Shown here: positions 7,674 through 42,302 of the stretch, piece by piece | How positions within the stretch are numbered: the stretch's first letter is position 1 | Layout: every line of letters begins with the position of its first letter | DNA from: Deltaproteobacteria bacterium | GTDB lineage: Bacteria; Desulfobacterota; Dissulfuribacteria; Dissulfuribacterales; DYLC01 | Direction of reading: 5' to 3' | NCBI GenBank assembly: GCA_028695735.1 | Contig: JAQVIJ010000001.1 | Location: forward strand, 237,081 to 301,080 | Length of the DNA: 64,000 nt | Program-made: the position numbers and the translations under genes | The notes under the pieces: model-generated | What the model was told of the DNA's origin: nothing | What the model saw: the letters and a program-made list of their open reading frames with translations, nothing else | Database searches by the model: none

Positions 7674-8363
7674 TCATTTCCTCTTTTTAGGGCTGGCCCT
7701 CGTGGGCTCGGGCTGACGGCAGTAGTCATGATATAATTTGGCCACGACCTCATCGGCCTTTTCATTGACGAGTTTCAGGGCGGTACCCACCACATCGCTT
7801 CCTGAATAGGATTCAGATGAGGTGGTGACGGTAGAGAGAATGCGTCCGGAGGCATCCGACAGGGTAAAGGTCATGGTGACCGCCACCTCCTTGACACCGA
7901 TGACAGGATTGACGCCCGTGTGGGCCACAATAACGCCCTTCAGAAGGAAGTTGGCGGCAAGCCTGCGCGCCGCTGTGATGGCGGCATCGGGATCTCCGCC
8001 AAGATAGGCCTCTATCTCGGCCTGGGCTATCTGTTTTTTGATCTGTTCTGGAGTATAGGTCTTGAGCCCAAGGGCACGGAGACGATTGTTGATGGCATCG
8101 AAAAACAGGCCGTAGTTGGACTGATCAGCGCGCATACGGCCACTGGCCTGTTCACCTATCATGATGCCGATCTTTTGATCCTTTAATTTAGACCGGCATG
8201 GTACACTGGTCAGCCATTGAATATGTGCAGCCCGCGCCTCCTCCTGCCCGCGTTCACTATCCTCGGCCTCAGAAAAGGAAAAGGCGTAAGCGGCCACAGG
8301 CAGGAACAGCGCACAAAAAACGATCCATCCAATCCATTTTTGGCTCAATGCACAACCCCCCAC
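7674..8363 (-). CDS. Secreted protein of unknown function, CsgG-cluster component
   Basis: 229 residues with a signal peptide (cleavage near AAYAFS). The body has a short strand KIGIMIGEQ, helices, and Ala-rich AARRLAANFLLKGVIVAHTG followed by strands VKEVAVTMTFTLSDASGRILST. That alternation is reminiscent of the TolB-N/CsgG-like fold, but I see no diagnostic motif. The listed start is a GTG with AAGAGAG upstream; a TTG five codons later with GGGGG upstream is an alternative. It ends 1 bp before the large FlgT-like gene, so the two are probably co-translated. I do not recognise a named family. Confidence 0.65.
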   Translation of the reverse strand: MGGCALSQKWIGWIVFCALFLPVAAYAFSFSEAEDSERGQEEARAAHIQWLTSVPCRSKLKDQKIGIMIGEQASGRMRADQSNYGLFFDAINNRLRALGLKTYTPEQIKKQIAQAEIEAYLGGDPDAAITAARRLAANFLLKGVIVAHTGVNPVIGVKEVAVTMTFTLSDASGRILSTVTTSSESYSGSDVVGTALKLVNEKADEVVAKLYHDYCRQPEPTRASPKKRK

Positions 8364-8466
8364 TCTCTTAAAAATCTCTTAAAAAATAGAATCAGACTTA
8401 CAGCAGACCCTGGCAATCTCCCTTGGAAAGCTTCCCTCTTGTTGCCCGATGCACAAGAAATCGTCC

Positions 8467-14816: not shown

Positions 14817-15644
14817 CTACTTTATGTCAACAGAGGCCATATCCGCTGTATTGCCAATACCCATAGCGACATTGGTTGCACCCTTGACATTGGCTTGATT
14901 GGTCACAGTGCCTTTTACATTGGAATTCTCGATATCCACCGAGCCCATGTTGGCCTTGTTGGCAATACCCATGGCAACATTGGTCGAACCCTTGATATCA
15001 GCCTTGTTGCTCACTGTGCCCTTAACATTGGATTTCTCGATGTCCACCGAGCCCATGTTGGCCTTGTTGGCAATACCCATGGCAACGTTGGTCGAACCCT
15101 TGATATCAGCCTTGTTGCTCACTGTGCCCTTGACATTGGATTCCTCTATGTTAACCGAGCCCATGTTGGCCTTGTTGGCAATGCCCATGGCAACGTTGGT
15201 CGAACCCTTGATGTTGGCCTGATTGCTCACTGTACCCTTGACATTGGATTTCTCGATATCTACCGAGCCCATGTTGGCCTTGTTGGCGATACCCATGGCG
15301 ACATTGGTCGAACCCTTGATATCAGCCTTGTTGCTAACTGTGCCTTTTACATTGGACTTCGCGATATCTACCGAGCCCATGTTGGCCTTGTTGGCAATAC
15401 CCATGGCAACGTTGGTCGAACCCTTGATGTTGGCCTGATTGCTCACCGTGCCCTTGACCTTAGAATCCTCAATGCCTACAGAGCCAACCCTCGCTTCATT
15501 GGCGATGCCCATGGCGACGTTGGTTGTGCCCGCCACATCCGCCTTGTTGCTCACCGTACCCTTCACATCAGATGCTGCAAAGGCCATGGAGGAACTTACC
15601 AAAAGAGCTGCCAAAACAAGAATCATTTTACCTTTCATTTTCAT
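14817..15644 (-). CDS. Secreted protein made of seven near-identical 36-residue repeats (candidate major fibre subunit A)
   Basis: 275 residues: a signal peptide (SSSMAFA), two residues, then seven repeats of exactly 36 residues (last one 34). The consensus, in two pieces, is NVKGTVSNKADIKGSTNVAM then GIANKANMGSVDIEKS. In the DNA this is a 108-bp tandem repeat; the central copies are almost identical, so the array looks recently expanded. No Cys, no aromatics and a strict Gly/Asn/Val/Ser periodicity suggest a beta-solenoid or amyloid-like polymer. AGGAGT precedes the ATG. It is the first gene of the 2249-15644 cluster, directly downstream of the region with the 17-bp inverted repeat. Not a family I recognise; curlin repeats are shorter (about 22-23 residues). 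Confidence 0.9.
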   Translation of the reverse strand: MKMKGKMILVLAALLVSSSMAFAASDVKGTVSNKADVAGTTNVAMGIANEARVGSVGIEDSKVKGTVSNQANIKGSTNVAMGIANKANMGSVDIAKSNVKGTVSNKADIKGSTNVAMGIANKANMGSVDIEKSNVKGTVSNQANIKGSTNVAMGIANKANMGSVNIEESNVKGTVSNKADIKGSTNVAMGIANKANMGSVDIEKSNVKGTVSNKADIKGSTNVAMGIANKANMGSVDIENSNVKGTVTNQANVKGATNVAMGIGNTADMASVDIK

Positions 15645-17432: not shown

Positions 17433-18623
17433 TTAATGGGACTCGGACACATGGCCTCTGAAGAACTTTTCTCCAATCAAGAAGGCCATTGCGCATAAGC
17501 TAAGACCACTCAATGTAACCATGACCTCATGCAGAGAAGGAGAGTATGAGAAATAATGAGGAATACCAACCAGATCCCCTAACTCATGGAAGTGAGGGAC
17601 TATCTGGCCTACGACTACTAAGTCGTAGCGCATTACAAAGATACCGGTCATGCAAAGGGCGCCGGCTATAAACATGGCCTTCATATCCTTGGCCTTTACC
17701 AGAGAGATGATGGCAAACGGCAGGAGCATGCCCAGCAGGACCTCGCCACCCCAGAAATTCAGGGCGTAGTCGCCGGTCAAAATCGCCTTCATCGCCTCGA
17801 ACTTTCCTGGAGGTTCCCCAGCCACGCCCGAAAGCACCTTCCATGTGGTAAAGAACATTATGATGACCATCAACAGTGCGCCGAGCTTGCCAGTGGCGGA
17901 CAGGGCATTCTTCATGGAATCACTCATCTGCCAGCCGTTGGCCTTATAGGCAAGCCATGTAAAGAACAAAATGGCAGCACAACCGGACATCATGGCGGAG
18001 GTTATGAAATAAATGGGCATATATGGGCCGTGCCAGAATTCCCTTGCACCGAGAAGGCCAAAAACCGCACCGAGATTGCTGTGCGCCGCCACACCGGCTA
18101 CAACCCCCATCAGACCAAACATGGCAGCCTGTTTGTGCCTGCCGACCTGCAACAAGGCGAACTCAATGAGCATGAAGAAGAGATATGCGCCGTACAGGGT
18201 GCCCATCCACCAGATATTAGATGTGAGATTCGGGGTCAGCACATTGTAGATAGCCATACGCCAAGGGCTTTCGATCTCAAAGGCTATCACCATAAAACCG
18301 CTTATAATGGTAGCGATGGCCAGGAAGACAGAGCGTTTTGCGATGGGCATGAAGGTTTCATTGCCAAAGACGTGACCTATAGATGAAACAAGACACAAAC
18401 CGGTGGACGTAACGACGAAGAAGACATAAGTAGAGATAAGAAGGCCCCACGGCACTTCACGAGTAACTCCGTAGGTCTGTTCATGACCTGCGAAAAAGGC
18501 ATGAATACCAAAGGCCACCCCGACCGCAGTCAAAAAACCAAAAAATGCAATGGCTGCGTTGTAAGACTTGGACGCTGTGGAAACCAAACCACCTTCTAAT
18601 ACCCCTGTTTTTACCTCGGACAT
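17433..18623 (-). CDS. NrfD/PsrC-family quinone-interacting membrane protein
   Basis: About 396 residues with roughly ten hydrophobic segments and the NrfD-type features FFVVTSTGLCLVSSIGHVFG, FEIESPWRMAIYNVLTPNLT and SNIWWMGTLYGAYL. Such proteins (PsrC, QrcD, ArrC, HmeC) exchange electrons and protons with menaquinone and normally partner an FeS protein. No FeS or catalytic subunit is adjacent; only a 39-residue membrane protein precedes it and a MerR gene follows. The track start at 18632 puts the ATG directly after AAAGGAGG. The second ATG at 18623, 9 nt after GGAGG, is better placed. It could serve as the quinone module of the hydrogenase or of a sulfur reductase, unresolved. Confidence 0.9.
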   Translation of the reverse strand: MSEVKTGVLEGGLVSTASKSYNAAIAFFGFLTAVGVAFGIHAFFAGHEQTYGVTREVPWGLLISTYVFFVVTSTGLCLVSSIGHVFGNETFMPIAKRSVFLAIATIISGFMVIAFEIESPWRMAIYNVLTPNLTSNIWWMGTLYGAYLFFMLIEFALLQVGRHKQAAMFGLMGVVAGVAAHSNLGAVFGLLGAREFWHGPYMPIYFITSAMMSGCAAILFFTWLAYKANGWQMSDSMKNALSATGKLGALLMVIIMFFTTWKVLSGVAGEPPGKFEAMKAILTGDYALNFWGGEVLLGMLLPFAIISLVKAKDMKAMFIAGALCMTGIFVMRYDLVVVGQIVPHFHELGDLVGIPHYFSYSPSLHEVMVTLSGLSLCAMAFLIGEKFFRGHVSESH

Positions 18624-18682
18624 AACAAACATCCTCCTTTAATAAATAGATAGAATAGACTTTAGACGGAAAAACGAACTAC

Positions 18683-18802: not shown

Positions 18803-19430
18803 TTTTAACTCCTTTGATCACCAGTAGCGGCTGGTTCGAAGGTACACAACAAACAACATGTCATTTTTTATGGCCGGCAAGAAACTTTATGAATCCATTG
18901 GAAGTCCCTCCCTTATATGACGAGATATTTTTCATGATTTTGAAAATAAATATGGAAATTGAAATTGTCAAGAAAAAAATAACATCCATACTCTCCAAAA
19001 GATACATTTTTAGATTTTACACAGAAGCAGCTACTAAAATGGCGCAAAATATGCCTAATAATAATGCCTGTTATCAGGACAACTGGGGCCCGTATTAGAC
19101 AAAACATACAAACGGGAAGTAGGCTCATCTAATGACATTTTTGAACAAAAAATTAAAAGATAAGGCTAACTTATTGTAATTAAAGCAAATAATTACAAAA
19201 TGGCCGCACATTGTTACAATTTGAAACTCATTAAAACGAGAACAAAACCATAAATCATAACGCAACACGTTTTACGCCATGCTCATCACACAGATGGGCT
19301 AATTTTAAGCCCATGTCTTTTTATATTGTCTGTCTTATTTTATTGAGAAGATAGGACATTACGGCGTAGGCAAAATACAACTATCAGGTTTAATTGACAT
19401 AATTAAAATAAACCGACTAAAATTGCAAAA
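18803..19430. other. AT-rich intergenic region upstream of the nrfD unit, with a dyad
   Basis: About 630 bases without a credible gene; the 94-aa plus and 71-aa minus ORFs are low-complexity readings of AT-rich DNA without ribosome sites. It should contain the promoter of the nrfD unit. A dyad TTGTAATTA-N7-TAATTACAA lies at 19174-19198, and an imperfect palindrome around 19326-19362 (GTCTTATTTTATTGAGAAGA region). Either could be an operator. Confidence 0.45.
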
Positions 19431-19446
19431 TTGGCACGTTGCTTGC
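19431..19446 (+). promoter_or_regulatory. rpoN site: Sigma54 (RpoN) promoter
   Basis: TTGGCACGTTGCTTGC matches the RpoN consensus TGGCACG-N4-TTGC exactly, with GG and GC 12 nt apart. Transcription would start near 19458 on the plus strand. No protein-coding gene lies downstream on that strand; instead a hairpin with a T-rich tail follows within about 100 nt. Confidence 0.75.
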
Positions 19447-19457
19447 TTTGAGTAAAT

Positions 19458-19563
19458 GCGTATAAACGGAAATATTGCCTCGGACAGCAACATCCGTTTC
19501 AATACAGGACGAAAACATATGAGGACAGGTGGCGGCCTGTCCTCACCTTCTTCTTCAGTTTTT
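19458..19563 (+). ncRNA. Candidate sigma54-dependent small RNA of about 105 nt
   Basis: Bounded by the sigma54 promoter and by a terminator. The predicted RNA folds into a first stem (AAACGGA at 19464-19470 with TCCGTTT at 19493-19499, and TTGC/GCAA inside), a single-stranded A-rich linker (CAATACAGGACGAAAACATA) and the terminator stem. The listed 109-aa ORF here overlaps tatC antisense and has no ribosome site. It ends about 37 bp before the convergent tatC stop. No known RNA family recognised. Confidence 0.55.
19520..19563 (+). terminator. Rho-independent terminator (small RNA; possibly also tatC on the other strand)
   Basis: TGAGGACAGG and CCTGTCCTCA form a perfect 10-bp stem with a 6-nt loop. 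On the plus strand it is followed by CCTTCTTCTTCAGTTTTTTC. On the minus strand the tail is only weakly T-rich (TATGTTTTCG), so the main direction appears to be plus. Confidence 0.7.
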
Positions 19564-19599: not shown

Positions 19600-20433
19600 C
19601 TATACAATTGGTGTGGCATTTTGCGTGTCGTTATTCGGCTTCTTCAGGCGCGGCATAAAGGTATCGGCCATCCAGACCAGCAATATCCCCAGTTCATAAA
19701 GCAGGATGAGTGGCACTGCCATCAATATCTGGTTCACCACGTCAGGCGTAGGCGTCAGAATTGCAGCCACTATAAAGGCTATTAGGATTGCATAGCGCCG
19801 CCATTTTCTCAGCCATTCAGCCCGAACAATACCCATCATCCCCAAAAACAGCATGAAAACAGGCAATTCAAAGGCCAGGCCAAATGCCAGGAGCAGGTGT
19901 ATGGCAAATGACAGGTATTCCGTGATGTTTGGCATGAGCCTCAGGCCTGCACCACTGTAGCCGGCAAAAAATCCAAAGGCCGCCGGAAACACCACAAAAT
20001 ACCCGAACACTCCGCCCCCGATGAAACACAGGCTGGAAATAAATGCCAGCGGAAGGACGATACGTTTTTCGTGGCTGTAAAGGCCGGGGGCTATAAACGC
20101 CCATATTTCGTAAAGGATTACCGGAGAGGACAGAAATATGCCGCATACGAAGGCAAGTTTCAGGTATGCAAAAAAACCTTCTGAATATGCCACGAAGATA
20201 ATGTCCGAACCCGTTGGCAGGACCTGTTTCAAAGGCCTTGCAACCGCATCGAATATGGGGTCGATGAAATAATAGGCCACTCCGAATCCCACAGCCAGTG
20301 CAAGAATGGAGTGTATGAGCCTTCGCCGTAATTCTACAAGATGTTCGTTTAGGGGCAAACCCTGCCCTTCTTCGTTTGAATCCAAAGGCCCTTCACTGTT
20401 AGACTCACTGGGCGACGGCTGTTCAAAAGTCAT
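19600..20433 (-). CDS. tatC: Sec-independent (Tat) protein translocase subunit TatC
   Basis: 277 residues. Core subunit of the Tat system that reads twin-arginine signals and exports folded proteins, such as the hydrogenase at the start of this window. The family signatures are plain: LNEHLVELRRRLIHSILALA, FVAYSEGFFAYLKLAF, SSPVILYEIWAFIAPGLYSH, EKR, and FAFGLAFELPVF-like LLAFGLAFELPVFMLFLG. Six hydrophobic segments are visible. The N-terminus carries an extra acidic, Ser/Glu-rich stretch of about 25 residues. The ATG overlaps the end of the upstream peptidase gene by 11 bp. No tatA or tatB is adjacent. Confidence 0.97.
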   Translation of the reverse strand: MTFEQPSPSESNSEGPLDSNEEGQGLPLNEHLVELRRRLIHSILALAVGFGVAYYFIDPIFDAVARPLKQVLPTGSDIIFVAYSEGFFAYLKLAFVCGIFLSSPVILYEIWAFIAPGLYSHEKRIVLPLAFISSLCFIGGGVFGYFVVFPAAFGFFAGYSGAGLRLMPNITEYLSFAIHLLLAFGLAFELPVFMLFLGMMGIVRAEWLRKWRRYAILIAFIVAAILTPTPDVVNQILMAVPLILLYELGILLVWMADTFMPRLKKPNNDTQNATPIV

Positions 20434-41299: not shown

Positions 41300-42052
41300 A
41301 TGGGCCTGCCTGTCCACACCCTCTATGGCATCGGAGTGGGGCCTGGAGACCCCGAACTCCTCACTCTCAAGGCAGCCCGCATTCTAAAAGAGGTGGGTGT
41401 AATCTATGCGGCATCCTCCTCGGACAATGACTACAGCATCGCATACGAAATCATTCGGCCCCATATTCAAGAAAAGACAGACTTCCCCCCTGATAAGGGG
41501 GGATTGAGGGGGGTTGAGGTCTGCCGACTCTCCTTTCCCATGACTCGGGACAAGGCGGCCCTTGAGCAGGCCTGGACCGCCAATGCCTCTGAGGTGCTTA
41601 CGGCACTTAAGACCATGAACGCCGCCTTTGTAACCCTGGGGGATCCCCTCACCTATTCCACATTCAGCTATCTCCTGAACACCATGAATGCCCTGGAAAC
41701 AGATGTCTCATTTCGTGTGGAGATCATTCCAGGGGTCACATCCTACAATGCGGCTGCCTGTCGCTCCATGATACCATTGGTCTCAGGCGAGGAATGCCTG
41801 TTTGTAACCTCAGGGGCCCTGGGTGGCGCCAAGCTGCAGGAGATCGCCCATGTGGCGGATACCATCGTGATGCTGAAGGCATATCGTTATTTCAATCACA
41901 TCTATGACACCCTGGAGGCACTGAATCTCTTGGACCATGCCGTCTTGATCAGCCGCTGCGGCATGGAGGGGGAACAGGTGGTGACTAATCTGCGTCAGTT
42001 AAAGGGCCAAAAACTGCCATATCTCTCCCTCTTACTCATAAAAAGGCCCTGA
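41300..42052 (+). CDS. cbiL: Cobalt-factor II / precorrin-2 C20-methyltransferase CbiL
   Basis: 250 residues. Methylates C20 in anaerobic or aerobic corrin-ring synthesis. The SAM-binding motifs are YGIGVGPGDPELLTLKAARI, VTLGDPLTYSTFSYLL, VEIIPGVTSYNAAACRS and ALNLLDHAVLISRCGMEGEQ. Residues 60-72 (TDFPPDKGGLRGV) are encoded by a copy of the dispersed CCCCCTGATAAGGGGG repeat and are not part of the family; they fall in the variable loop before EVCRLSFPMTRDK. The rest is intact, so the enzyme is probably functional. The gene abuts fabZ. Confidence 0.93.
   Translation: MGLPVHTLYGIGVGPGDPELLTLKAARILKEVGVIYAASSSDNDYSIAYEIIRPHIQEKTDFPPDKGGLRGVEVCRLSFPMTRDKAALEQAWTANASEVLTALKTMNAAFVTLGDPLTYSTFSYLLNTMNALETDVSFRVEIIPGVTSYNAAACRSMIPLVSGEECLFVTSGALGGAKLQEIAHVADTIVMLKAYRYFNHIYDTLEALNLLDHAVLISRCGMEGEQVVTNLRQLKGQKLPYLSLLLIKRP
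41477..41515 (+). repeat. Dispersed repeat copy embedded in frame inside cbiL
   Basis: ACTTCCCCCCTGATAAGGGG with its flank GGATTGAGGGGGGTT matches the two intergenic copies at 42077-42275 almost base for base. It adds 13 codons without shifting the frame. Confidence 0.85.
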
Positions 42053-42076
42053 TTTTTACAATGATGGTTCGTTACA

Positions 42077-42275
42077 GGGTGATAAGCCCCCTTTTCCGTT
42101 ACATTCATCACTTGACAGACTTCCCCCCTGATAAGGGGGGATTGAGGGGGGTTTTGATTCTGATAACCCCACCCCGGCCCTCCCCTTGTCAGGGGAGGGT
42201 GATAGACCCCCTTTTTCTGTTATATTTATCACTTGACAGACTTCCCCCCCTGATAAGGGGGGATTAAGGGGGGTT
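42077..42275 (+). repeat. Tandem pair of dispersed repeats between cbiL and cbiD
   Basis: Two direct copies 120 bp apart (42077-42155 and 42197-42275), each running GGGTGATA, then CCCCCTTTT, ATCACTTGACAGACTTCCCC, and CTGATAAGGGGGGATT followed by AGGGGGGTT. The core CCCCCCTGATAAGGGGGG forms a hairpin. They fill most of the 250-bp gap and leave cbiD with no clear ribosome site. The short ORFs listed here on both strands are readings of the repeat. Confidence 0.85.
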
Positions 42276-42302
42276 GGGGAGGGGCATTCCCTCTTTCTTC
42301 TT

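Follow-up and report, generated by a model that had tools for sequence, protein, structure and literature searches.

Which product, if any, is made from an exact sigma54 promoter that faces no protein gene? This question is raised by a 967-bp gap that carries such a promoter core and separates a gene for an nrfD-like membrane protein (17433-18632, minus strand; Pfam NrfD, 5.3e-28) from tatC (19600-20433, minus strand; Pfam TatC, 3.6e-76) in the 64,000-nucleotide stretch of DNA analysed here in its full length, to which we refer as the window. tatC is the final gene of a lon-like/pepP/tatC run on the minus strand and converges on both the promoter and the predicted RNA, in agreement with the initial annotation of this DNA, which had noted that the promoter faces no protein gene. 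Judged from sequence, a lineage-specific non-coding RNA of ~100 nt is probably made from this sigma54 promoter beside tatC.

A probable sigma54 promoter in the nrfD-tatC gap

The promoter, TTGGCACGTTGCTTGCTTT, occupies positions 19431-19449 of the plus strand, is intergenic, and has its -24 GG at 19433-19434 and its -12 GC at 19445-19446. The exact RpoN match claimed for it earlier is confirmed, as TTGGCACGTTGCTTGC at 19431-19446 constitutes an exact sigma54 core, and this is the single exact match to TGGCAC-N5-TTGC in the whole window. When scored against the extended consensus TTGGCACGNNNNTTGCTTT with its 15 fixed positions, the site reaches 15/15 and is the sole one in the window with a score of at least 12; the reversed control of the window holds no site with at least 12/15. 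The organism's own 2.22-Mb genome contains 8 exact cores, whereas reversed controls gave 1 and 0. Three of these 8 cores are found within long reading frames, and the remaining five, including the 19431 site, lie outside long frames or just before a gene; with three exact cores in genes, well under 1 intergenic core is expected by chance. Two of the other exact cores stand before predicted small RNAs. The extended pattern TTGGCACN5TTGCTTT was counted in 60 related genomes, which contain 14 copies of it versus one in the control, with about 4 of the sites clearly inside long frames and about 10 intergenic.

These counts bear on a reading in which the sigma54 site is either a chance match or the decayed remnant of a promoter whose gene was lost, the downstream hairpin belongs to tatC, and no RNA is made. 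That chance matches exist is evident from the three exact cores inside genes, and the interval lacks conservation as well. However, all 15 extended positions match, and the probability of an intergenic chance match is estimated at about 5-10%. A chance match at 19431 is consequently unlikely, and we regard this reading in its entirety as quite improbable; the promoter is probably genuine.

The organism encodes rpoN, and its genome yields 22 matches to PF00158, the domain of sigma54 activators, about 19 of which are strong; no activator gene of this type (PF00158) is present within the window. Two inverted repeats upstream of the promoter are possible activator sites. The first is a perfect 7-bp repeat, ATGGGCT-N7-AGCCCAT, at 19294-19314, that is 144-164 bp before the predicted start, which might alternatively be a weak terminator on the plus strand; the second, at 19175-19197, is AT-rich and has the core GTAATTA-N7-TAATTAC. 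We found no upstream box common to the window site and the other sigma54 sites, and no copy of the 19294-19314 repeat at the latter. The segment 19281-19324 (plus strand) can form overlapping alternative hairpins, GCTCATC/GATGGGC versus ATGGGCT/AGCCCAT, followed by GTCTTTTTAT; it might be attenuator-like or represent the end of another short plus-strand transcript in the gap. A sigma70-like site absent from the initial annotation (TTGACA-N18-TAAAAT, 19394-19423, plus strand, 11/12) immediately precedes the sigma54 site and may provide a second, RpoN-independent start.

The hairpin next to tatC and the predicted RNA

According to the -12 rule, which sets +1 at 12 nt after the -12 C, transcription would begin at 19458. 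The stem that had been reported to begin 62 nt past the predicted start does so, at 19520, and its description as a perfect 10-bp stem also holds: an exact stem of 10-11 bp is present at 19520-19545. Of 100-nt stretches drawn at random from the window, about 0.25% contain an equally stable hairpin. The T-rich tail ascribed to the plus strand did not withstand inspection since this tail, CCTTCTTCTTCAG, is interrupted by C. We evaluated the 11-pair hairpin, which is terminator-like in either orientation, with the d'Aubenton-Carafa terminator score. On the plus strand the score is -1.1, below the threshold for an intrinsic terminator (tail CCTTCTTCTTCAGTT), whereas the three clear sigma54 RNAs of this genome reach +47, +61 and +29; on the minus strand, the tatC side, the hairpin scores +9.8, above the threshold (tail TATGTTTTCGTCCTG). 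As tatC is the last gene of its run, its stop codon is only 54 nt away, and the minus strand scores better, the hairpin is probably the terminator of the tatC operon, perhaps a bidirectional one. A terminator is needed there by the tatC operon, and the hairpin is therefore no independent evidence for a free-standing RNA. Hence, the free-standing sigma54 RNA put forward in the initial annotation keeps its promoter half, with the exact site, rpoN and the activators, and is weak in its terminator half, where the hairpin scores better for tatC on the minus strand.

The strand asymmetry of the hairpin suits a different proposal, according to which the promoter is real and yields no discrete RNA; polymerase would read through a hairpin that serves tatC only and would generate a longer antisense RNA into tatC and pepP that dampens the operon. 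Its passing as a terminator on the minus strand and failing on the plus strand, together with its location just past the stop of the gene that closes the operon, agrees with such an antisense transcript. Yet, an 11-pair GC-rich hairpin with a pyrimidine-rich stretch behind it usually stops some of the polymerase, and we consider the antisense transcript possible but unlikely. Conceivably, the sigma54 transcript could also serve as leader for a small protein, as there is an AGGA-N9-ATG arrangement with the ATG at 19519 and an open frame of 88 residues that runs to 19785, antisense into tatC. We rejected this as highly improbable because the start codon is situated at the base of the hairpin and because the frame, running mostly opposite conserved tatC codons, may be open fortuitously. 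A discrete RNA from 19458 is, in our assessment, somewhat likelier to exist than to be absent.

The predicted non-coding RNA would span about 90-105 nt (19458-19556, plus strand), its start being set by the -12 rule and its 3' end being an estimate. The second stem-loop noted earlier in the 5' part is predicted at 19460-19505 (z -2.4) and is moderately better than shuffled sequences, 6/200 of which were as good. Folding of 19458-19560 gave a minimum free energy of -33 kcal/mol and a z of -3.5 versus shuffles, mainly owing to the 19520-19545 hairpin. Rfam returned no match at the gathering threshold and nothing credible up to E 10. A target search against nine start regions in the window listed nrfD (p 0.01) and a repeat-protein gene (p 0.04), with p values that are uncorrected and leave out accessibility, and we claim no target. 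Nor does any observation made here connect the RNA with limitation of nitrogen or carbon. This repeat-protein gene (14817-15644, minus strand) codes for near-identical repeats (VKGTVSNKADIKGSTNVAMGIANKANMGSVDIE) without a convincing Pfam family and adjoins a gene for a lipoprotein-like protein of 467 aa. Elsewhere in the window, clustered G6/C6 hairpins (TCCCCCCTGATAAGGGGGGA and variants) make up a small repeat array at 41484-42293.

The idea that the promoter-RNA-terminator block recurs next to tatC in relatives was not substantiated: no shared block was found in about 30 relatives, none of which has an exact sigma54 site in the 1.4 kb on the 3' side of tatC, and DNA similarity searches against 60 relatives and phages returned short chance matches only. 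When 46 genomes of the order were searched with a covariance model of the predicted RNA (R1), which is insensitive as it was built on one sequence, the genome of origin alone gave a hit. Within the family there is a single further genome, from another genus (TatC identity 54%); with the nearest relative that distant, the absence of the block is weak evidence against the RNA.

Predicted sigma54-associated small RNAs in the genome and its order

The genome that harbors the window contains three paralogous RNAs that are predicted to be sigma54-driven, each with the motif CCCUCCUCUCC and a strong terminator. Two are arranged in tandem (G000:C2:451901-452004 and 452290-452400, corresponding to L072:7902-8005 and 8291-8401), and their promoters are the two other exact sigma54 sites mentioned above; the third copy is located at G000:C2:543175-543284 (L116). 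The motif CCCUCCUCUCC, an anti-Shine-Dalgarno core, is complementary to Shine-Dalgarno sequences. A covariance model (R2) detected members of this family in 41 of the order's 46 genomes with E below 1e-8 (relatives L105-L134 and L135-L141), several of which possess 2-3 tandem copies. Outside the order, 285 sampled genomes of the phylum yielded no member at E 1e-4, in a search with stricter filters that could miss distant members. Compensatory changes affect 7 of the 11 pairs of the R2 terminator stem, in an alignment that was fitted to the model and for a stem that is the terminator itself. The R2 copies tested against Rfam had no match.

As hallmarks of R2 membership we took the CCCUCCUC core plus a strong terminator, downstream of an NtrC-type regulator. 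At each of the 29 loci checked, the R2 promoter is located 2-188 bp (median 61) downstream of an NtrC-type response regulator on the same strand. These orphan regulators are 53-65% identical to that of our organism, in whose genome the R2 RNAs converge on the NtrC-type regulator instead. TGCAAA/TTTGCA boxes are repeated 100-170 bp upstream of R2 copies B and C (G000:C2:452118-452160, about 8119-8161 of L072, and upstream of G000:C2:543175); they might serve the adjacent regulator as activator sites, and they were not seen upstream of the R2 RNAs in most relatives of the order. Both this organism and its order appear to use sigma54 for free-standing small RNAs.

The window RNA and the R2 family share the genome and the type of promoter, TTGCTTT included, as well as a comparable stretch preceding the start. 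In contrast to the R2 RNAs, the window RNA has neither the CCUCC motif nor a strong U-tract terminator nor a neighbouring regulator. We rejected its membership in this family because the R2 model aligns to the promoter part only (E 0.057), CCCTCCTCTCC is absent from the window, and the window holds no activator gene. The R2 family is the stronger result of the two and deserves more attention than the window RNA.

Small RNAs under sigma54 control have been described in other bacteria. The sigma54 regulome of Desulfovibrio comprises 4 non-coding RNAs (PMC4641369), among D. vulgaris RNAs of this kind Dv_sRNA2 is encoded downstream of DVU0679 (PMC3333781), and the arrangement of the R2 family resembles this DVU0679/Dv_sRNA2 pair (PMC3333781, PMC4641369). 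Dv_sRNA2 and the other sigma54 ncRNAs of D. vulgaris, like our organism a sulfur-metabolising deltaproteobacterium, share with the window RNA a sigma54 promoter before a short intergenic non-coding RNA. There, the RNA adjoins its own response regulator and binding of the activator was measured (PMC3333781, PMC4641369), whereas the window RNA has no activator nearby and is predicted from sequence. The Qrr small RNAs of vibrios, controlled by LuxO and sigma54 (PMC10162802), are similar in their length of about 100 nt, their sigma54 promoter and their terminal hairpin; the window RNA differs from them in its weak terminator tail and lacks an Rfam match, a luxO neighbour and a family of copies. 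GlmY/GlmZ of enterobacteria (QseF/GlrR, sigma54; PMC7073468, PMC6075780) are likewise sigma54-controlled small RNAs, unlike which the window RNA has no sequence or structural Rfam match and no qseEGF neighbour. Identity with Qrr or GlmY/GlmZ was rejected, as the Rfam covariance models give no match. The window RNA is best read as a further case of the known class of sigma54-dependent small RNAs, and by analogy with this class, a base-pairing regulator is its likeliest role.

A proposed regulatory model for the predicted RNA beside tatC

The data lend themselves to a model that we slightly favor, in which an active sigma54 promoter makes a short untranslated RNA that acts in trans and is ended by a hairpin shared with tatC. 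An NtrC-type activator, bound 100-250 bp upstream, would upon being switched on cause the sigma54-RNA polymerase to fire at about 19458 on the plus strand. The 3' end of the resulting transcript would be set, at least partly, by the hairpin at 19520-19545, which would also end transcription of the convergent tatC operon. The RNA, laid out as a 5' stem-loop, an A-rich linker and a 3' hairpin, would most likely act by base pairing in trans, as other sigma54-driven small RNAs do. The three other sigma54 small RNAs of the genome suggest that the organism uses such an arrangement. The weak plus-strand terminator, the missing conservation in the 45 order relatives and the lack of an activator gene in the window and of an upstream box shared with the other sigma54 sites count against this model, as could the sigma70-like site if it were an active promoter. 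We also entertain a more specific, rather doubtful version, in which a lineage-specific, trans-acting sigma54 RNA arose recently behind the tatC terminator, shares its 3' hairpin with the tatC mRNA and thereby links the tatC operon with a signal of stress or nutrient status.

If transcribed, the RNA beside tatC would be the fourth sigma54-driven RNA in a genome of 2.2 Mb, and it would illustrate a way in which RNAs of this type emerge next to existing terminators. Through its link to an orphan response regulator, the R2 family makes control at the post-transcriptional level directly testable in this order.
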